From NCBI GenBank assembly GCA_003551565.1, contig PUMZ01000177.1:1-40191 (forward strand): 40,191 bases of DNA. The letters run 5' to 3'. The translations under genes were made by a program, and so were the position numbers. Below the pieces are notes generated by a model. The model saw only the letters and a list, made by a program, of their open reading frames with translations. It made no database searches and had not been told where the DNA came from. This document shows positions 4,302 to 24,370 of the stretch, one piece after another (the first letter of the stretch is position 1; every line of letters starts with the position of its first letter). Source of the stretch: Candidatus Brocadiaceae bacterium. GTDB lineage: Bacteria > Planctomycetota > Brocadiia > SM23-32.

Positions 4302-5114
4302 TCACATCGGCAGGAGAAGCTGGATGCCCGTTATCAGGGTCACGGCATAGACCGCAACCATGAAATGTTCTCCCGTTATTCTCCGGTTGAGATGCAGACC
4401 CAGCAGTGTGCCGAACGCGGCGAAGGGGAAGAGCAGCAGGGCCGTTCCGAGTCGCGGGGGGGTGAACATGTTCCGGGCGGTGAACGGAACCAGTTTGATG
4501 AGGTTCCCCATGAAAAAATACGTTACGACGGTGCCCACAAAAATGCTTTTCTCCAGCTTTTGAGGCAACATGAAGACGCTTATAATCGGGCCGGCCGAAT
4601 GGGCGAGTGTGGAGGTCAGCCCGGCGGCCGTACCGACCGCCACGCCATGGGCCGGGGCCGGACGGTAGGGGGGGGCATCGTTTCTTTTGCCGGTTGCTCC
4701 CAGGAAACGCCACATCTGGACGAGGACAAACGTTACGCAGATGCCCCCGACAAGTTTGTTCAATATCACTTCACCGGTCAGGGACGTCGTGCCCACCGTC
4801 ATCGCGTCGAGATCGCCGAGCAGATGGAGCACGGCCCATCCGGCGCCCACCCCGAGGAGGCATCCTCCGAGAAGCATGGAAAGCACACGCCAGTTCTGCC
4901 GGCCCCGGTAGTGGATTATGGAGAAGACATCTCCGCAGATCAGAACCGGAAGCAACACCGCCAGCATGTGCTGAGCGCTGCCGGTTGCAAGGGTCAGCAG
5001 CGGCACGGCGACGATCCCGGCGCCGGTGCCGAATCCGGCTTTTGACATGCCGATAATCATCGCGGCCACGGCCGCCGCCAGCCAGCCCGTGAGTGAGAGA
5101 GGGAGATAGGTCAT
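4302..5114 (-). CDS. TSUP (TauE/SafE) family membrane permease
   Basis: A 270-residue, very hydrophobic inner-membrane protein with about seven or eight predicted helices. The first helix contains GMSKAGFGTGAGIVAVPLL, the typical first repeat of the TauE/SafE (TSUP, DUF81) family, and the second half holds the matching GLTSTLAHSAGPIISVFMLPQ and FFMGNLIKL segments. Family members export or import small organic or inorganic sulfur anions such as sulfite, sulfoacetate or thiosulfate; no substrate can be assigned here. The gene stands alone on the minus strand, convergent with the kinase and divergent from the secreted-protein operon. Its promoter places the transcript start only about six bases before this ATG, so translation is probably leaderless or nearly so; a later start would delete most of the first helix. 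Confidence 0.87.
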   Translation of the reverse strand: MTYLPLSLTGWLAAAVAAMIIGMSKAGFGTGAGIVAVPLLTLATGSAQHMLAVLLPVLICGDVFSIIHYRGRQNWRVLSMLLGGCLLGVGAGWAVLHLLGDLDAMTVGTTSLTGEVILNKLVGGICVTFVLVQMWRFLGATGKRNDAPPYRPAPAHGVAVGTAAGLTSTLAHSAGPIISVFMLPQKLEKSIFVGTVVTYFFMGNLIKLVPFTARNMFTPPRLGTALLLFPFAAFGTLLGLHLNRRITGEHFMVAVYAVTLITGIQLLLPM

Positions 5115-5278: not shown

Positions 5279-5307
5279 TTGTCCGGCGTTGCAATTTTTG
5301 GTATAAT
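5279..5307 (+). promoter_or_regulatory. Extended -10 promoter for the secreted-protein/ABC operon
   Basis: TTGTCC (5279-5284), 17 bases, then TATAAT (5302-5307) with an extended -10 TGG directly in front (5299-5301). Initiation near 5314 leaves a leader of about 150 bases before the ATG at 5468; I see no known riboswitch in that leader. Confidence 0.7.
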
Positions 5308-5467: not shown

Positions 5468-6448
5468 ATGCAAAGGGGAAGAGGGACGATGTGTCTTTTT
5501 TCGTGGTGTCTGGGAGCCGTTTTCATGTTCGTCGTCATCACCCGCGCCTCCGCCTGTCCGATACCTGTTTTCCAGTATTCACTGGAATACTGGAGTTCGG
5601 ATCCGTATGACGTTGTGGTGCATTACAACGGGGAGTTTACGGACGAGCAGCAGGTGCTCGTGGATCGGTTGAGGGAAGCTGCGGGGGGGGGAAGCTCGGG
5701 GGCCAATATAAAACTCACCTGGCGGGATTACTCCGCGGCCACCATCGCTCCGGCGGCGGATCGGGACCTCCCGGGGCTTGAGGTGCGTTATCCGGGCGTC
5801 TCCGGTCTGCGCGGTACGTTATGGGAGGGTCCGCTCGAGCACGATGCGATCGAAGAAATGCTGCATTCTCCGATGCGGCAGGAAATTGCGGAGAAACTCC
5901 TTGATCGGCACGCCGGGGTCTGGATCCTTCTGGAAAGCGGCAACCCCGACGAAGACACGGAGGCGCGCAGAATCCTTGAGGAAGAATTGGCCAGGCTGGA
6001 AGAGACATTGAAGGTTCCCGATCCGTCGGAAGAATACGGAATAGATTTTGGAGAGATCTACACCGATATCCGTTTCAGTTTGTTGACTCTGGGCCGTGAT
6101 GATCCCGAAGAGCAGATGTTCATCAGGATGCTGCTCGGCACGGAACAGGATCTGGAGGATTATGCGGACAGGCCCATGGTGTTCCCGATTTATGGCAGGG
6201 GTCTTATCCTCTATGCGCTGGTCGGCGATGGCATCAACCCATGGACTCTGGCCGAGGCCGGTGCGTTCCTTACCGGGCCTTGCTCGTGCCAGGTGAAAGC
6301 TTCCAACCCCGGAACGGATATATTGATGTCCTTCGACTGGAAGTCGCAGGTGGAACGGCGTTCGACCTACAACGTGCCCGATGCGCCCGCTACCGGAGGT
6401 TTTCTGGATCGTATGGATGAAGCCGAAGACCGGCTGAGGAACGAATGA
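5468..6448 (+). CDS. Uncharacterised secreted protein with N-terminal CPIP and C-terminal CSC motif
   Basis: A 326-residue exported protein. Residues 1-29 are a signal peptide (RGRG positive start, hydrophobic core to VVIT, then RASA) ending just before C30 of CPIP. ASA-C could be read by signal peptidase I or as a poor lipobox. The mature part has a possible thioredoxin-like first half (YDVVVHYNG strand, NIKLTWRDYS), an acidic helical middle (about 160-185), and a conserved-looking end, FLTGPCSCQVK, with C272 and C274. No catalytic CXXC is present. The ATG at 5468 follows a perfect AGGAGG at 5456-5461. The FtsX-like permease and ATPase follow 61 bases downstream. From memory, similar CPIP...GPCSCQVK proteins occur in planctomycetes next to ABC transporters, without assigned function. 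The two cysteine sites suggest metal or redox handling, but this is speculation. Confidence 0.72.
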   Translation: MQRGRGTMCLFSWCLGAVFMFVVITRASACPIPVFQYSLEYWSSDPYDVVVHYNGEFTDEQQVLVDRLREAAGGGSSGANIKLTWRDYSAATIAPAADRDLPGLEVRYPGVSGLRGTLWEGPLEHDAIEEMLHSPMRQEIAEKLLDRHAGVWILLESGNPDEDTEARRILEEELARLEETLKVPDPSEEYGIDFGEIYTDIRFSLLTLGRDDPEEQMFIRMLLGTEQDLEDYADRPMVFPIYGRGLILYALVGDGINPWTLAEAGAFLTGPCSCQVKASNPGTDILMSFDWKSQVERRSTYNVPDAPATGGFLDRMDEAEDRLRNE

Positions 6449-6509
6449 CAGTGGATCCTCTGCAGATCGGACGCTGTTCGCCGAATATCTACTTTGAGAA
6501 GGAGCTGAT

Positions 6510-7898
6510 ATGAAACGGGATAACATGAATATATGGGCCCTGGTCAGCAGGGAAATCCGTTACCGGAAGGCCGGGTTTGTCATCGGATTGATATGCGTTG
6601 CTGTCGCCATCGGGAGCCTTGTCGGCGCCGTGACGCTCCTGAATGCTCACGAAACCCATACCGAAACGGTGCTGGAGCAGAGGGCGCGGGAAACCGATAA
6701 TCTGCTGGCCCGAAAGGAGCGGGAAACACGGGAAGAGATGGACAGGCTCGAGGACGATTATCGCAGGATCATGAGGGATATGGGGCACAATGTTCTCATA
6801 CTCCACGAAGACCAGAGCCTGGCAAGACTCAGGTCGGCCGGTTATCCCGACACGACCATGCCCGAGGATTATGCCTACCGGTTGGGCGAGGGGTATATCG
6901 AGACGCTGAACCACCTGCTGCCCGTCTTGCAGGAGAGGATACCGTGGCCGGAACATGATGATCTGGAGATCATCCTGACCGGCACGCCCGGACAGGTGCC
7001 GGTGTCTCATCTGAGCCGTTTTTTGACCGAGGACGGCGAGGCTTACAGAAACCCGATCGTGGATCCCATTCCCGAAGGCGGCCTGAAAGTCGGCCATGCA
7101 GTGGCGCGCGAGCTGAATTTGAGACCGGGTGATACCGTGTCGCTGCGCGGTGAAGAGTTTAAGGTCCATGAAATACAACCGCCCCAGGGTGACCAGGAAG
7201 ACATCATGGTGTGGTGCAACCTGGAGGTGGCCCAGCGGTGGCTGGAGAAGGAAGGTCGGATAAATGCCATCTTCGCCCTGGAATGCATATGCGACATCGA
7301 TGCGCTGGGGCAGATCATGGACGAAGTGGAAGAGATTTTGCCGGACGTGCAGGTGCTGGAGTTCAGTTCCAGGGTCAAAGCCCGTGGCGAGGCCAGGCAG
7401 CGGGCGGAAGAGGAGGCCAGAAGATCTGTTGCCGCCGAGATTGAGCAGCGGGAGAAGATGCTGGCGGGCGAGATCGAACACAGAGAAGAGGTCCTGAACG
7501 AGCTGCACAGGCTCGCAAGTATTCTCGTGCCGGTCGTCCTGCTTGCCTCGGGACTCTGGATTTTTTTCCTGGTTCTGGGAAATGTGCGGGAACGCGAGGC
7601 CGAGATCGGAATACTGAGGGCGATCGGCGTGCGGGAATCGAAGATCATGGCGGTGTTCCTTTCCAGGGCGGTGATCATCGGGCTGATCGGCGCGGTTTTC
7701 GGATATTTTGGCGGAATCATCGTCGGGGTTGCCTGGAGCGAGGTTCCGGTCTTTTCCACGGATTTTTTCCGCATGTTCAACCCGCTGCTGTTTATCGCGG
7801 CCCTTTTCACCGCCGCGATACTGTGTGCGGTCGCCGGCTGGCTTCCCGCCCTTAAAGCGGCCAACAGCGATCCGGCGGACGTGTTGAGGCAGGATTGA
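6510..7898 (+). CDS. FtsX/MacB-like ABC transporter permease with periplasmic coiled coil
   Basis: A 462-residue inner-membrane subunit of a MacB/LolC-type mechanotransmission ABC system. One transmembrane helix lies near the N-terminus (about 21-44), followed by a large periplasmic domain of about 290 residues, then three helices (about 340-362, 385-415, 430-455). The cytoplasmic coupling loop reads NVREREAEIGILRAIGVRESKI, the FtsX family hallmark, and the C-terminus LKAANSDPADVLRQD is also typical. Unusual features are a charged stretch after TM1 (about 50-90) and a second E/R-rich coiled coil (about 285-335) before TM2. Such proteins power periplasmic work or lipoprotein release rather than classic uptake. 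GAAGGAG at 6498-6504 supports the start. It overlaps the next reading frame region by zero to a few bases and sits between its secreted partner and ATPase. Confidence 0.88.
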   Translation: MKRDNMNIWALVSREIRYRKAGFVIGLICVAVAIGSLVGAVTLLNAHETHTETVLEQRARETDNLLARKERETREEMDRLEDDYRRIMRDMGHNVLILHEDQSLARLRSAGYPDTTMPEDYAYRLGEGYIETLNHLLPVLQERIPWPEHDDLEIILTGTPGQVPVSHLSRFLTEDGEAYRNPIVDPIPEGGLKVGHAVARELNLRPGDTVSLRGEEFKVHEIQPPQGDQEDIMVWCNLEVAQRWLEKEGRINAIFALECICDIDALGQIMDEVEEILPDVQVLEFSSRVKARGEARQRAEEEARRSVAAEIEQREKMLAGEIEHREEVLNELHRLASILVPVVLLASGLWIFFLVLGNVREREAEIGILRAIGVRESKIMAVFLSRAVIIGLIGAVFGYFGGIIVGVAWSEVPVFSTDFFRMFNPLLFIAALFTAAILCAVAGWLPALKAANSDPADVLRQD

Positions 7899-7948
7899 GG
7901 CCGCCGGGACAGCCCATAGGGGATAAAAATTCATCAAGGGATATGACC

Positions 7949-8614
7949 ATGAACGATGTTTTAACGATGCACAATGTGACGAAAACATACCGCCCTCCGG
8001 GCCGCCATGAGGTGGTGGGACTGAAAGATGTTTCACTGAAAGTGGAATCGGGGGCATTCAAGGTGGTGTGCGGTCCCAGCGGAAGCGGTAAAACCACCCT
8101 TCTCCTCGCCGCGGGCGGGCTTCAGAAACCGGAATCGGGATCGGTGAAGGTCGGGGGGGAGGACATCTACGCATTGTCTTCTGAAAAAAGGGCCCGTTGC
8201 AGGGCGGGACAGATCGGATTTGTCTTCCAGCAGTTCCATCTCATACCGTTCCTTAGCGTTCTCGAGAATGTCCTCGCCCCTACGCTTGCGGTACCCGGCA
8301 ACGATTCCGAAGAGAAGGCGAGATGTCTTGTTGATTTTTTCGGGATCTCGCACCGGATCGATCATCCTCCGTCGGAACTGAGCACCGGCGAACGCCAGAG
8401 GGTCGCGCTGGCCAGGGCGATGCTGAACGATCCTGCGCTGGTTCTGGCGGATGAGCCGACGGGGAACCTGGATGAAAAGAACGCTGAGGTGGTGCTGAAA
8501 CATCTGCGGGACTTTGCCGCGCGGGGCGGCGCAGTACTGGTGGCGACCCACGACACCGGGATCAAGGCGGATGAGAAGATTCAGCTCCTGGACGGCGCCC
8601 TCGCCGGGCCATAA
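7949..8614 (+). CDS. ABC transporter ATPase (LolD/MacB class)
   Basis: A 221-residue ATPase subunit that would drive the FtsX-like permease just upstream. Walker A is GPSGSGKTT (residues 42-50); the Q-loop region is FVFQQFHLIPFLSVLENV; the signature is LSTGERQRVALARA (S-T-G-E instead of S-G-G-E); Walker B plus D-loop is LVLADEPTGNLD; the H-loop is ATHD. The EPTGNLD and FHLIP features place it in the LolD/MacB class. Two ATGs occur at 7943 and 7949; the second has better spacing from AAGGG at 7936-7940. The TAA stop is formed by the first bases of a dispersed repeat (8612-8663): the coding sequence runs ...GGGCCA and then into ATAACCCGC of the repeat. Confidence 0.93.
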   Translation: MNDVLTMHNVTKTYRPPGRHEVVGLKDVSLKVESGAFKVVCGPSGSGKTTLLLAAGGLQKPESGSVKVGGEDIYALSSEKRARCRAGQIGFVFQQFHLIPFLSVLENVLAPTLAVPGNDSEEKARCLVDFFGISHRIDHPPSELSTGERQRVALARAMLNDPALVLADEPTGNLDEKNAEVVLKHLRDFAARGGAVLVATHDTGIKADEKIQLLDGALAGP

Positions 8615-8663
8615 CCCGCATATTTCATAAACCAAAAACGATAGGTGAAATAAGCGGGATAAG
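8612..8663 (+). repeat. Dispersed inverted-repeat element, copy 1 (short)
   Basis: Left end ATAACCCGCATATTTCAT (8612-8629) and right end GTGAAATAAGCGGGATAAG (8645-8663) are imperfect inverted repeats (14 of 18 positions match when one is reversed), separated by only 15 bases. Related copies lie at 10737, 18903, 29039 and 39518. The left end supplies the stop codon of the ABC ATPase gene. Confidence 0.75.
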
Positions 8664-8746
8664 CGCCTCCATGTTGAAAGCCGTATCGTCGCAGTTCGTA
8701 TATTGCTTTTCATGACGGGTCCAATAACTTTTTTAGCGAAAATGCA

Positions 8747-9622
8747 ATGGGAATCAAGCGTATGGTGATGTATGCCGTTCCGCTGGTGCTGCTGGCGCTT
8801 CTGGGGATTGTCGCGTTCGCTCTGCTGCGCGGTGGCTTTTTCCGGCCTGCCCCGTCCGCCGGACCCGCACTGCCGCGCGTAACGGAAGGGCTGTTGCTGC
8901 TCTGCGATGAAAACGTCCGTTATCCCGTTACGGCTCCGGATGTGGAGCACGAGAAAGGAGCGGTCGGCCTGTACCAGCGCCGTGCCGGAGTCCGGGTGGA
9001 GGTCCGCCATGGCCCGGCGGCGGAGTTGATCGATGCGTTGCGGGTCCAGCAAGCAGGCGACCTGTTTCTGGCGGGCGACGGCTATTATATCGAACAACTC
9101 AGGGAAAACGGTCTCCTGCACGCAACCCGGCCGGTGGCCCGGCTGGTTCCGGTCATACTGGTGCGGAGTGGAAATCCACTGGATATCGGCGGCGTATCGG
9201 ACCTTTCCGATCCGGACCTGCGCCTGGCGGTGGCGGGGGAACGTACCGGCCTGATGGGGAGGGTGACCGCCGAGGTGCTCCGCAAAAATGCGATGGATCC
9301 GCGCGGCCTGGACAATATACGCTTGACCGCCGGCACGGCTTCTGAAGCCGCCCGGGCGGTGGTTACGGATCGCGCCGATGCCGCGATCGTCTGGCGTCCG
9401 GTGGGCATATTCTATTCCCGCCACACCGAAATGCTCGGGATCGCTCCGGAAAACAACGTTATATCGCAGGCGGAAGTTGCCGTTCTCAACACGTCCGAAA
9501 ACAAAGAAAGGGCGTTGCAACTGGCCGATTTTCTCTCCGGCCCCGCCGCCCGGGAGGTTTTCGGGAGTTATGGTTTCGATGTTGAACCGCTTTCCTCCCC
9601 GGAAGGCGGTCGCCGGGACTGA
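8747..9622 (+). CDS. Periplasmic molybdate-type (ModA-like) solute-binding protein
   Basis: A 291-residue protein with an N-terminal hydrophobic helix (about 8-30) that can act as uncleaved anchor or signal. The rest follows the cluster D solute-binding fold of ModA-like proteins: LLLLCDENVRYP (first strand), GDLFLAGDGYYIEQ, ARLVPVILVRSGNP, LSDPDLRLAVAGERTGLMGR, RADAAIVWRP, and a C-terminal ALQLADFLSGPAAREVFGSYGF. The family binds tetrahedral oxyanions or small acids; the ligand is unknown here. It follows the FtsX-type transporter operon with a 132-base gap containing repeat copy 1, so co-transcription is uncertain, and no ModB-type permease is present. The ATG at 8747 has no clear Shine-Dalgarno sequence. 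Confidence 0.78.
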   Translation: MGIKRMVMYAVPLVLLALLGIVAFALLRGGFFRPAPSAGPALPRVTEGLLLLCDENVRYPVTAPDVEHEKGAVGLYQRRAGVRVEVRHGPAAELIDALRVQQAGDLFLAGDGYYIEQLRENGLLHATRPVARLVPVILVRSGNPLDIGGVSDLSDPDLRLAVAGERTGLMGRVTAEVLRKNAMDPRGLDNIRLTAGTASEAARAVVTDRADAAIVWRPVGIFYSRHTEMLGIAPENNVISQAEVAVLNTSENKERALQLADFLSGPAAREVFGSYGFDVEPLSSPEGGRRD

Positions 9623-9651: not shown

Positions 9652-10728
9652 ATGGTCATGACATCAAAAGAACGGGTGATGACAGCGTTTTCCTGTCAGG
9701 AACCGGACCGGGTGCCGATGAACTACGCAGCAAATCCCGGGATCGATGCCCGATTGAAGGCGCATTTCGGGCTCGACCCGAAGGATTCAACGGGATTGCT
9801 GGAGGCGTTGGGGGTGGATTTCCGGGGAGTCGGGGCGCAGTACACCGGGCCCCGATTGCACCACGACATCCCGGAAAGGGGCATCAGGGTGGACAACTGG
9901 GGAAAACACGTGCGCTGGGTCGAGCACGATACCGGCGGCTACTGGGACTACTGCGAGTTTCCACTCCGGGACGCCGATGAGGAAACGGTGCGAAACTGGC
10001 CGATGCCTTCGCCGGATGACTACGACTATTCCCGGATCAGGGATCGTACCCGCCAGATGCGGCAGTATGCGATCTATACCGGCAACGCCGGACTTGGGGA
10101 TATTATCAATACCAACGGCATGTTGCGTGGTACGGATCAGACGCTGGTGGATTTGATCACGGAGGACCCGGCCGGGATGCTTCTTGCGGAGCGCCGCACC
10201 GCTATCAGTATCGAAATCACCCGACGCATCCTTGAGGCTGCCGAAGGGGGCATAGATTTCCTGTGGATGGGGGAAGACCTGGGCACGCAGATAGCGCCCA
10301 TCATCAGTCCTGGGCTTTACCGCAAGACGATCCGGCCGCTGCACCAGCAGTTTGTTGACCTCGCCGGGAGCTTCGGCATTCCCGTCATGATCCACACCTG
10401 CGGTTCCAGCAGCTGGGCGTACGAAGACTTTATCGCAATGGGGATACAGGTGGTGGACACGCTCCAGCCCGAGGCGGCGCACATGTCCCCGAATTACCTG
10501 AAGAGCACGTTCGGAGGGCGCCTTGCCTTCCACGGCTGCATCAGTACCGCCGGTCCGGTGGCGACCGGCACCGTCGCAGAAACCATTCGCTATTGCCGCG
10601 ACATCCTTGATATTATGACGCCCGGCGGCGGTTACTGTTTTGCCCCCACCCATGCACTGCAGGATAATTCACCGACCGAAAACGTCGTGGCAATGTACGA
10701 GGTGGCGCGGGAATACGGGAAACGTTGA
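9652..10728 (+). CDS. Uroporphyrinogen decarboxylase-family (MtaA/HemE-like) protein
   Basis: A 358-residue TIM-barrel protein of the UroD superfamily. It begins with the family start TSKERVMTAFSCQEPDRVPMNY, which is typical of the methylcobamide:CoM methyltransferase-like branch rather than true HemE. Further family segments are IDFLWMGEDLGTQIAPIISPGLYRKTIRPLHQQ, an HTCG zinc-site-like motif (H about 248), and GGGYCFAPTHALQDNSPTENVVAMYE at the end. The branch contains corrinoid-dependent methyltransferases and many proteins of unknown substrate that sit beside sugar hydrolases in PVC bacteria. The HxC-type motif favours zinc-dependent methyl transfer, but no corrinoid protein or activase lies nearby. 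ATGs at 9652 and 9658 are both possible; neither has a strong Shine-Dalgarno sequence. A second family member is at 39558-40191. Confidence 0.85.
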   Translation: MVMTSKERVMTAFSCQEPDRVPMNYAANPGIDARLKAHFGLDPKDSTGLLEALGVDFRGVGAQYTGPRLHHDIPERGIRVDNWGKHVRWVEHDTGGYWDYCEFPLRDADEETVRNWPMPSPDDYDYSRIRDRTRQMRQYAIYTGNAGLGDIINTNGMLRGTDQTLVDLITEDPAGMLLAERRTAISIEITRRILEAAEGGIDFLWMGEDLGTQIAPIISPGLYRKTIRPLHQQFVDLAGSFGIPVMIHTCGSSSWAYEDFIAMGIQVVDTLQPEAAHMSPNYLKSTFGGRLAFHGCISTAGPVATGTVAETIRYCRDILDIMTPGGGYCFAPTHALQDNSPTENVVAMYEVAREYGKR

Positions 10729-18728: not shown

Positions 18729-19220
18729 CGGTTCCGCAACAGAGGCTGCCAAATTGACAGAAGCGGCGGTGGTTCGACTCCTCTTCTGTCGGATTGACAG
18801 TGGGCGGCGCCAGGCGAGCCGGGGCATGCATCGGCTCGGGCGGAAGGCGTCGTATGGTTCCATGCTTATCGCTCACGCCGCACGCGACCCGGTCTGCCCT
18901 GTATAACCCGCATATGTCATCAACCAAAGGCAATCATTAATATACCTGTCTGCGCCTGCCTGTCGCTTCCGCGACGCAGACAGGGGCGCGCACAGGCAGG
19001 CGGCGCTTGCTTTCTGCCGCATCTGCACCACGCAGAACGCGTGAAATAAGCGGGATAAGGCGCAGGCGCGGTGCGGACCGGTGCATCCCCATCGTTACCG
19101 TGCTGCCACGTGTTTTGGGATTCTGGCACGGTGTTTGCTGTTAATGAGCATGGCAGAGGATGTATTTTGTCAAATTGCTATGGAATTTTTTCCCTAGAAA
19201 AGTTTGGAGGTTATTCGAAG
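18729..19220. other. Intergenic region with mini-hairpin, repeat copy 2 and groEL1 leader
   Basis: No convincing gene. 18756-18790 holds GACAGAAG and CTTCTGTC arms enclosing a T-loop-like GGTTCGACTCC. 18903-19059 is the longest copy of the dispersed element. 19060-19220 is the groEL1 leader; I found neither a CIRCE operator (TTAGCACTC-N9-GAGTGCTAA) nor a clear heat-shock sigma box. Confidence 0.5.
18903..19059 (+). repeat. Dispersed inverted-repeat element, copy 2 (full length, 157 bp)
   Basis: Left end ATAACCCGCATATGTCAT and right end GTGAAATAAGCGGGATAAG are imperfect terminal inverted repeats. The interior has nested hairpins: CCTGTCTGC ... GTCGC-TTCC-GCGAC ... GCAGACAGG, and CCTGCCTGT against ACAGGCAGG. 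The left 42 bases match copy 4 and the right 53 bases match copy 3. No transposase is encoded. Confidence 0.8.
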
Positions 19221-20894
<1,674 letters not shown>

Positions 20895-21374: not shown

Positions 21375-22991
21375 ATGGCAGCGAAGCAGCTGATATACAG
21401 TGAAGAAGCGCGGAAACAGATCCTGAACGGTGTCAAGAAGCTCAATGACGCTGTCAGGGTCACAATGGGGCCGACCGGCCGCAATGTGATATTACAGAAA
21501 AGCTACGGCAGCCCGACCATCACAAAAGACGGGGTCACCGTGGCAAAGGAGATCGAGCTGGAAGGCAAGTTCGAGAACATGGGCGCCAAGATGGTCAATG
21601 AAGTCGCCAGCCGTACCAGCGACGAGGCGGGTGACGGGACGACAACCGCCACGGTATTGGCCGAATTGATCTACAGGGAGGGGCTGAAGGCGGTGGCTTC
21701 CGGCGCCAATCCCATGGCGATCAAGCGCGGCATCGACGGTTCCGTTGATGCGGCGGTTAAAAGGCTGGGCGAGATGAGCCGCGATGTGAAGGAGAAAAGC
21801 GAGATCGCTCAGGTTGGCACCATCAGCGCCAACAACGATCCGGAAATCGGCAATCTCCTGGCGGAAGCGGTGGAAAAAGTCGGGAAAGATGGAGTGATTA
21901 CGGTGGAAGAAGGTCGTTCGACGGAGACCACCCTCGATTTTGTCGAAGGCATGCAGTTCGACAAAGGCTACCTCTCGCCATATTTCGTTACCAATGCCGA
22001 GCAGATGGAAGTCGAGCTGGAAGATGCATATATTCTCATTTATGAGAAGAAACTCAGCAATATCCGCGATCTGGTTCCGGTGCTGGAGAAGGTCGCGACC
22101 GCGCAGAAGCCTTTGCTGATCGTAGCGGAAGATGTGGAAGGCGAGGCGCTGGCGGCGCTGGTTGTCAACAAGCTCAGAGGGACGCTGCAATGTTGTGCGG
22201 TCAAGGCCCCCGGGTTCGGGGAACGGCGCAAAGCGCAGCTCAGCGACCTTGCGGTGCTGACCGGCGGACGCTTTATTAGCGAAGATCTCGGCGTCAAACT
22301 GGAAAACATCCAGCTTGAAGATCTCGGGCAGGCCGGCCGAATCTCCATTGATAAGGACGAGACGACCATCATCAGCGGCAAGGGCGCTCAGAAGGACATC
22401 AACGGGCGTATCGGCCAAATCCAGCGACAGATCGATAGCACCACCAGTGATTACGACCGCGAGAAGCTCCAGGAGCGCCTGGCGCGTCTTACTGGAGGCG
22501 TGGCCGTTGTCAAGGTTGGAGCGGCAACCGAAGCGGAAATGACGGAAAAGAAGGCAAGAGTGGAGGATGCACTCCATGCCACCCGCGCTGCCGCTGCCGA
22601 GGGTATCGTTGTGGGCGGCGGGTGTGCTCTCCTGCGGTGCCGTGATGCCGTGGCGAAGAGGCGTGAGAAACTCCGCGGTGATGAGAAAATGGGTGCCGAT
22701 ATCGTGACCAGGGCCGTGGAGGCGCCGGTGCGGAACATTGCCGAAAACACCGGCCATAACGGCGCTGTGATCGTCTCAGAAATACTCGACCTTGATCCGG
22801 AAGAGGGGTTCGATGCCAATACCGGCAAGTTCGTCAACATGTTTGATGCCGGCATCATCGACCCGACAAAGGTGACCCGCATCGCTTTGCAAAGCGCTGC
22901 GAGTATTGCGGGGCTGCTGCTCAGCACCGAAACAATGATCACGGATGTCGGCGACAGTGATGAAGAAAAGGTCGAAGGCAGCGTGCGGTAA
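21375..22991 (+). CDS. groEL2: 60-kDa chaperonin GroEL, paralogue 2
   Basis: A 538-residue GroEL with near-canonical core motifs: [94 protein letters not shown], and [32 protein letters not shown]. The C-terminus ends [12 protein letters not shown], with no Gly-Met repeat. It follows groES by 49 bases and has a GAGG Shine-Dalgarno at about 21361. The more conserved core suggests this is the housekeeping copy and paralogue 1 the specialised one, although only paralogue 1 has the GGM tail. It shares strong nucleotide-level similarity with paralogue 1 in conserved blocks, consistent with old duplication. Confidence 0.96.
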
Positions 22992-23242: not shown

Positions 23243-24370
23243 ATGGCACGGGAGTATTATACAACACTGGGAGTGTCTCCTGACGCTTCCCAACAGGAGA
23301 TAAAAAAGGCCTACAGGAAGATGGCGTTCAAGTATCATCCGGACAGAAATGCCGACGATCCTGGTGCCGCAGAGAAGTTCAAGGCCGCTTCCGAAGCTTA
23401 TGATGTTCTGGGCGATGAGGATAAGCGGAGGATATACGATCGCTATGGCGAGGAAGGACTCAAGGGCGTCAACCGGCACGATTTCAGATCGACTGAGGAT
23501 ATATTCGATGCGTTCCGTGACATTTTCGGCGGCGGGAGTCCTTTCGGGGAGTTTTTCGGCCAGCGGGGGGACAGGGGCGGAAGAGCGCGTGGACGCAACT
23601 TGCGCGTGAATATCGAGGTCTCCCTGGAGGATGCCGCGACGGGGACCCAAAAAGTCGTCAACCTCCGGAAGCGTGACATCTGCTCCGAATGCACGGGAAG
23701 CGGGAGCGCCCCCGGTACAGAACCGTCGACATGTTCTTATTGCAGGGGATACGGGCAAGTGGAGCAAAGGCAGGGTTTTTTTGCGGTGCGCGCCACCTGT
23801 CCCCGATGTCAGGGGAGCGGTTCGATCATCAAATCCCCCTGCACCGCATGCCGCGGGCATGGCCTGGTGGAGAACACCTCGGAAATACAGGTTGACATAC
23901 CGGCCGGGGTCGAATCCGGAACGCGACTGAAAATGCCGAACGAAGGCGAGCCTGACCCCGAAACTGGCAGGAAAGGGGATCTTTACTGCGATATTTCCGT
24001 TAAGGAGCATCCCATTTTTATCAGAAGGGGCCCGGATCTGGTTTGCAACTTGCCTTTGCCTTACACCCTGGCCGCCCTGGGAGGCCAAACCGAAGTGCCT
24101 ACGCTCAAAGCCGGTAAGATGGAGATCAATGTCCCGAAAGGGACCCAGAACGGCGATGTGCTGCGGTTGAAAAATGCGGGCCTGCCGGACATCCGCTACG
24201 GACGGAGGGGTGACCTTCTGGTCAAGGTGTTCGTGGAAGTGCCGCGAAAACTCACGAAACGCCAGAAAGAGCTTTTGCGGGAGTTGTCGGAGATCGAAGG
24301 AGCAAATATCGGCCAGGAACGGCAGGGATTCCTGGACCGTCTGAAAGAATACGTCAAACATGTTGGTTAG
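23243..24370 (+). CDS. dnaJ: Chaperone protein DnaJ (type I), first copy
   Basis: A 375-residue class A J-protein. The J-domain (residues 1-70) contains the HPD motif in YHPDRN; a short G/F region ([11 protein letters not shown]) follows; the zinc-binding region has four intact CXXCXGXG repeats ([32 protein letters not shown]); then the two C-terminal substrate-binding beta-domains and [25 protein letters not shown] dimerisation end. It delivers clients to DnaK and stimulates its ATPase. The ATG at 23243 matches homologues, although the Shine-Dalgarno sequence is weak. It sits between groEL2 and grpE; dnaK is not in the window. A second class A DnaJ lies at 35347. Confidence 0.94.

Follow-up and report, generated by a model that had tools for sequence, protein, structure and literature searches.

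A conserved envelope module of an exported, predicted thioredoxin-fold protein and an FtsX-type ABC system, with large propeller-type proteins as its probable client

We analysed a 40,191-nucleotide stretch of DNA (the window) from Candidatus Brocadiaceae bacterium (assembly GCA_003551565.1, contig PUMZ01000177.1, positions 1 to 40,191), in which four consecutive genes on the + strand, separated by intergenic gaps of 61, 47 and 132 bases, encode an exported protein (S), an FtsX-like permease (F), an ATP-binding cassette (ABC) ATPase (A) and a ModA-like solute-binding protein (SBP). This locus is almost certainly one copy of a conserved and widespread envelope module that appears to be undescribed, and the main client of S, F and A is probably P, a family of large exported proteins. 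Every fold in the module is already known, and the S family and the S-F-A-P combination are new within the open-access literature searched, where no description of the set was found. The best overall reading, which we hold tentatively at a little under an even chance, is that the module works as a thiol or metallo-chaperone relay, powered by its ABC components, for the maturation of P.

The S gene (5468..6448, +) starts with an ATG at 5468 and encodes 326 amino acids. Its signal peptide (5468..5554, +) ends in ASA directly before Cys30 (codon 5555..5557, +), which becomes residue 1 of the mature chain, and the only other cysteines of mature S belong to the C272-x-C274 motif (6281..6289, +). 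The coordinates and residues agree with an earlier interpretation made from the letters of the window (the sequence-only reading), which had described an exported protein with C30 at the mature N-terminus and C272-S-C274. S matched no entry of Pfam or NCBIfam, even with a threshold of E = 1, and showed no detectable sequence similarity to PDB chains; it is a new family without an existing family model, recognizable by CxxP[VL][FY]...GPCxC. Every sequence in the family alignment has C30 and C274, and 98 of 99 have C272, whereas S273 varies, and the conserved feature is C-x-C rather than the "CSC" first described. A lack of conservation of these cysteines had been named beforehand as a possible refutation, and all three proved essentially invariant. 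The 98 relatives were filtered on the N-terminal motif; the sole profile match without it (L096) is truncated at its start, and the motif also appears in most of the members added later by profile alone. The residue preceding the family cysteine is alanine in 88 of 98 relatives, and the -3 and -1 positions follow A-x-A, with E, W, R and D occurring at -2. Assignment as a bacterial lipoprotein was considered and rejected, as ASA-C here and A-x-A family-wide do not fit the lipobox ([LVI]-[ASTVI]-[GAS]-C). A hydrophobic C-terminal stretch of membrane-span length is found in 80 of the 98 members and is absent from the window's own group.

At least 569 relatives of S were confirmed when 84,980 GTDB genomes, one for each species, were scanned with a search pattern that began just after Cys30 and did not include the C-terminal motif; in the contig scan the single-protein query returned zero relatives and the alignment query 569, the best 80 of which were kept. 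The relatives belong mostly to Planctomycetota, Verrucomicrobiota and Omnitrophota, and occur also in Kiritimatiellae, Armatimonadota, WS1, Latescibacterota, KSB1, Hydrogenedentota and others, according to genome labels, some of which may be wrong for metagenome-assembled genomes. Among the source genome's own relatives S was found in 7 of 58 genomes, and in the phylum in 56 of 392 (profile of 90 members, alignment A3). A role in anti-phage defence was also considered and rejected: S and the SBP gave no PADLOC match, and the permease and ATPase matched through generic domains only.

Structure prediction of S alone, a check proposed by the sequence-only reading, gave with AlphaFold2 on alignment A3 a model of tandem thioredoxin-like domains (pLDDT 92.4, pTM 0.87). 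Foldseek matched this model to PDI a-b, ERp57 bb', calsequestrin and ERp44 with modest scores (best E 4e-4, for PDI a-b), and on the basis of this list S is, by prediction, a tandem thioredoxin-fold (PDI-like) protein. It lacks the CXXC active site, since the mature chain has just C30, C272 and C274.

Gene linkage, the other property whose absence had been named beforehand as a possible refutation, is conserved. F lies directly downstream of S on the same strand in 64 of 106 S loci, and A follows F in 49 under a strict test. Other neighbours in these loci are P (about 50), SBP (38), ModB (33) and MoeB/ThiF (16), with the set SBP-ModB-ModC accompanying S in about 33-38; all these counts are lower bounds because contig ends cut many loci. 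The fullest forms (L121 and L123) read P-S-F-A-ModA2-ModB-ModC-MoaD-MoeB, with MoaD fused to MoeB in L123. The P and S genes abut or overlap by a few bases in many loci, others read S-F-A-P, and several have S with P alone and neither F nor ModABC nearby. The window locus is a partial form of the module, comprising the core S-F-A and one SBP.

P proteins are exported, some 1,300 residues long in round terms and about 1,200-1,800 across the family, and predicted to contain a PQQ-type propeller, a class I S-adenosylmethionine (SAM)-methyltransferase fold, a second propeller and a malectin-like end. Of 392 genomes of the phylum, 56 encode S and 52 encode P, and 50 have the two together (Fisher p = 7e-54, without correction for phylogeny); P is absent from 334 of the 336 genomes without S, and two further S-genomes beyond the 50 have P by hidden Markov model profile. 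The two families are also joined in a natural P=S fusion (L056:808-5571), a single 1,587-residue frame in which the end of P leads directly into the S domain and no signal peptide separates the two. The equivalent of C30 is internal there, so this protein cannot depend on lipidation or on a free N-terminus. The best match of the second propeller of P was tetrathionate hydrolase (E 8e-16), followed by BamB and L-sorbose dehydrogenase. This propeller carries two histidines and four cysteines (H2C4; H629, H666, C1004, C1042, C1062 and C1064 in P0002 from L123), which 41 of some 41-42 sequences spanning the region retain; the same six columns were invariant in a separate alignment of 40 P sequences.

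P is strongly represented in the source genome, with matches on at least 20 contigs (including C319, C404, C242, C87, C27 and C164), one of 2,190 residues (L166:3127-9699), and many of these proteins carry LamG, Ig, HEAT or malectin domains. An expansion of 28 "BamB" proteins has been described in the planctomycete Tuwongella immobilis (PMC8567305), and such expansions may include P. Two further observations concern this family. The class I methyltransferase-like fold (e.g. in L123:5099-8893) stands in an exported protein, a place where S-adenosylmethionine is unexpected. The surroundings of the CxC motifs look alike in S (GPCxCxxKxxNPGxDLL) and P (TCxCxYQNQTSLAL), and MAFFT aligns one onto the other.

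The permease F (6510..7898, +; 462 amino acids) belongs to the FtsX-like superfamily, its FtsX C-terminal domain scoring 65 bits against a Pfam cut-off of 25.5, and A (7946..8614, +; 222 amino acids) matches ABC_tran and is closest to LolD, its score of 197 bits falling short of the equivalog cut-off (308). This bears out the earlier description of a MacB/FtsX-like permease with a LolD-class ATPase. Neither protein reaches the cut-off of a named subfamily: F scored 52 bits against the LolC/E equivalog (cut-off 362), 50 bits against MacB (966), 13 bits against MacB_PCD (27) and 23 bits against FtsX (255), and A scored 179 bits against FtsE (265). F and A are separate genes and not the MacAB-type fusion of ATPase and permease. 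The lipoprotein handling suggested by the sequence-only reading finds no support, with both proteins far under the LolCDE cut-offs and A-x-A in place of a lipobox before C30. That reading also overlooked a C259-x-C261 motif in F (7284..7292, +), which is near-invariant among 63 aligned F proteins (C259 in 61, C261 in 60, the exceptions being divergent or second copies). As read from the sequence, F has one hydrophobic stretch before residue 45 and three after residue 330, and this placement puts the motif in the periplasmic domain. A divergent S and F pair beside P (L188:2770-5227, -), whose F is without CxC, could serve as a natural control for a relay.

The SBP (8747..9622, +) has a membrane-anchored N-terminus and scored 134 bits against SBP_bac_11 and 53.8 bits against ModA, under the equivalog cut-off of 62.5. 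In alignment it corresponds to the first of the three SBPs of L072 (P-S-F-A-SBP-SBP-SBP-ModB-ModC), and relatives carry S-F-A-ModA(1-3)-ModB-ModC, often together with MoaD/MoeB. The linked SBP of relatives scored 103 bits against ModA, above the cut-off, and the linked permease and ATPase matched Mo_ABC_porter and WtpC best. A cysteine lies in the SBP ligand loop in 42 of 68 domains. What had been taken for a stand-alone, lone ModA-like protein is probably a dispersed part of a ModABC set; the reported absence of ModB holds within the window, but ModB is present elsewhere in the genome and in the S loci of relatives. The source genome has ModA-ModA-ModB-ModC on contig C38 (L155:7995-11688), whose pairing with the window SBP is only putative, and a second oxyanion-type set on contig C275.

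From these parts a working mechanism can be drawn. By analogy with the MacB, LolCDE and FtsEX families, F and A would form an ABC complex of the mechanotransmission type, and its ATP-driven periplasmic movement would drive S as the periplasmic effector. S, a PDI-like chaperone without CXXC, would present three thiols, namely Cys1 of the mature chain and CxC. A thiol relay from F (CxC) to S (C and CxC) could then supply P with a soft metal or sulfur-bound cofactor, for which the H2C4 site of the second propeller would be the acceptor. The ModABC-type importer and MoaD/MoeB associated with the module suggest molybdate or tungstate, activated sulfur, or both as the starting material of what is delivered. 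We prefer a relay mainly because F, S and P each have a near-invariant CxC motif, and all three motifs face the same side of the membrane. The broad proposal of the sequence-only reading, a machine in the periplasm that inserts metal or carries out redox maturation, remains the best account, though without its lipoprotein option; P, the thioredoxin-like fold of S and the MoaD/MoeB link all lay outside that reading's view. Delivery of a metal or cofactor, as opposed to plain disulfide chemistry, is slightly less than an even call. A long shot is the most specific version, a new extracytoplasmic metallocofactor pathway in which molybdate or tungstate imported by ModABC is thiolated by MoaD/MoeB, exported via the CxC of F, received by S and inserted at H2C4 of P.

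Several points weigh against a relay that matures P. We infer its chemistry and its substrate, be it a metal or a cofactor, and the cysteines of S, F and P might form structural or redox disulfides instead. ModABC and MoeB are linked to S in a minority of loci only. Four S-genomes (G163, G192, G223 and G318) keep S-F-A, or S with ModABC/ThiF, and have no or a marginal match to P, which means that P may not be the sole client. Over its whole chain S gives low TM-scores against PDB chains (0.2-0.3), and its fold is therefore assigned from E-values, probabilities and the order of secondary-structure elements; low scores are as expected if the two domains of S are arranged differently.

Three other explanations were weighed against this one. 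In a purely redox maturation, S would be a thiol-disulfide isomerase or reductase partner that uses its CxC in place of CXXC, is re-reduced or driven by F, and forms or shuffles disulfides among the four invariant cysteines of P without any metal. The predicted thioredoxin/PDI fold of S, the four invariant cysteines of P (CxC included) and the size and export of P all suit this proposal, yet S has no CXXC active site, and its conserved cysteines sit at the N-terminus and past the last helix, away from the thioredoxin active-site position. Moreover, the recurrent neighbours included no electron donor of the DsbD/DsbB type, and ModABC and MoaD/MoeB would be left unexplained; we regard it as a genuine rival, though rather unlikely. 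Export or anchoring, in which F-A moves P or a lipid or carbohydrate bound to P across the envelope or out of it, much as LolCDE or MacAB do, and S acts as an adaptor in the periplasm, would make sense of the FtsX/MacB topology of F, the LolD class of A and the carbohydrate-binding additions on P. It is improbable, because the scores fall far under the LolC/E, LolD and MacB equivalog cut-offs, neither MacA nor TolC is found among the recurrent neighbours, P has a signal peptide of its own, and the invariant CxC of F would have no explanation.

S-F-A might also serve oxyanion or metal homeostasis or sensing, such as control of molybdate/tungstate or soft-metal uptake, and lie near P by chance. 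The persistence of the ModABC/MoeB linkage where P is missing and the frequent cysteine of the SBP ligand loop are in line with this, but chance proximity fits poorly with the very strong co-occurrence of S and P, the P=S fusion and the loci that pair S with P alone, and this alternative appears the least probable of the three.

A promoter-like site, TTGTCC-17-TATAAT (TG-extended; 5279..5307, +), matches the consensus at 10 of 12 positions upstream of S. The operon had been called uniquely promoted, and one extended -10-type site is indeed present, but three matches in the scanned region against 1.9 expected by chance give this weak support. Divergent from S is a TauE/SafE-type permease gene (4302-5114, -) preceded by a perfect TTGACA-17-TATAAT match (12/12; 5155-5127, -). 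About 30 bases after the SBP gene begins a gene for a URO-D/MtaA-type methyltransferase-like protein (9652-10728, +), which was rejected as an operon member because a related gene was found in a single one of the 106 S loci. Farther downstream are two adjacent, different Cpn60 (GroEL) genes (19071-20894 and 21375-22991, +) and then a DnaJ gene (23243-24370). No plasmid-borne copies of the module were found.

S, F and P span several environmental phyla, with a function undescribed within the searches made, and P is strongly expanded in the source genome. If S-F-A does mature P, one deletion in a tractable planctomycete would probe dozens of "BamB-like" proteins together, and the matching cysteine motifs allow a direct test of a metal or cofactor relay.

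FtsEX, LolCDE and MacAB are type VII, or mechanotransmission, ABC systems. Like F, their permeases place a periplasmic domain between one N-terminal membrane span and three C-terminal ones, and, like S-F-A, they have a separate LolD-class ATPase and a periplasmic partner encoded next door. The present system differs from them in that F and A fall under every equivalog cut-off, F has an invariant periplasmic CxC, and the partner is the thioredoxin-like S (by prediction) rather than EnvC (FtsEX), LolA (LolCDE) or MacA (MacAB). S shares two tandem thioredoxin-like domains, as predicted, with PDI b-b', ERp57 bb', ERp44 and calsequestrin, but its thiols are the mature N-terminal cysteine and a CxC past the last helix of domain 2, with no CXXC. 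The linked SBP, permease and ATPase of relatives resemble the ModABC/WtpABC importers, from which they differ in that the SBPs are duplicated, fused or triplicated, often with a cysteine in the ligand loop; the window retains a single SBP below the ModA cut-off. The second propeller of P resembles tetrathionate hydrolase, BamB and PQQ-type propellers, whereas P as a whole has two propellers flanking a methyltransferase fold, a malectin tail and the invariant H2C4. We rate the module as an ABC mechanotransmission system with a new partner (S) and a probable new client (P).

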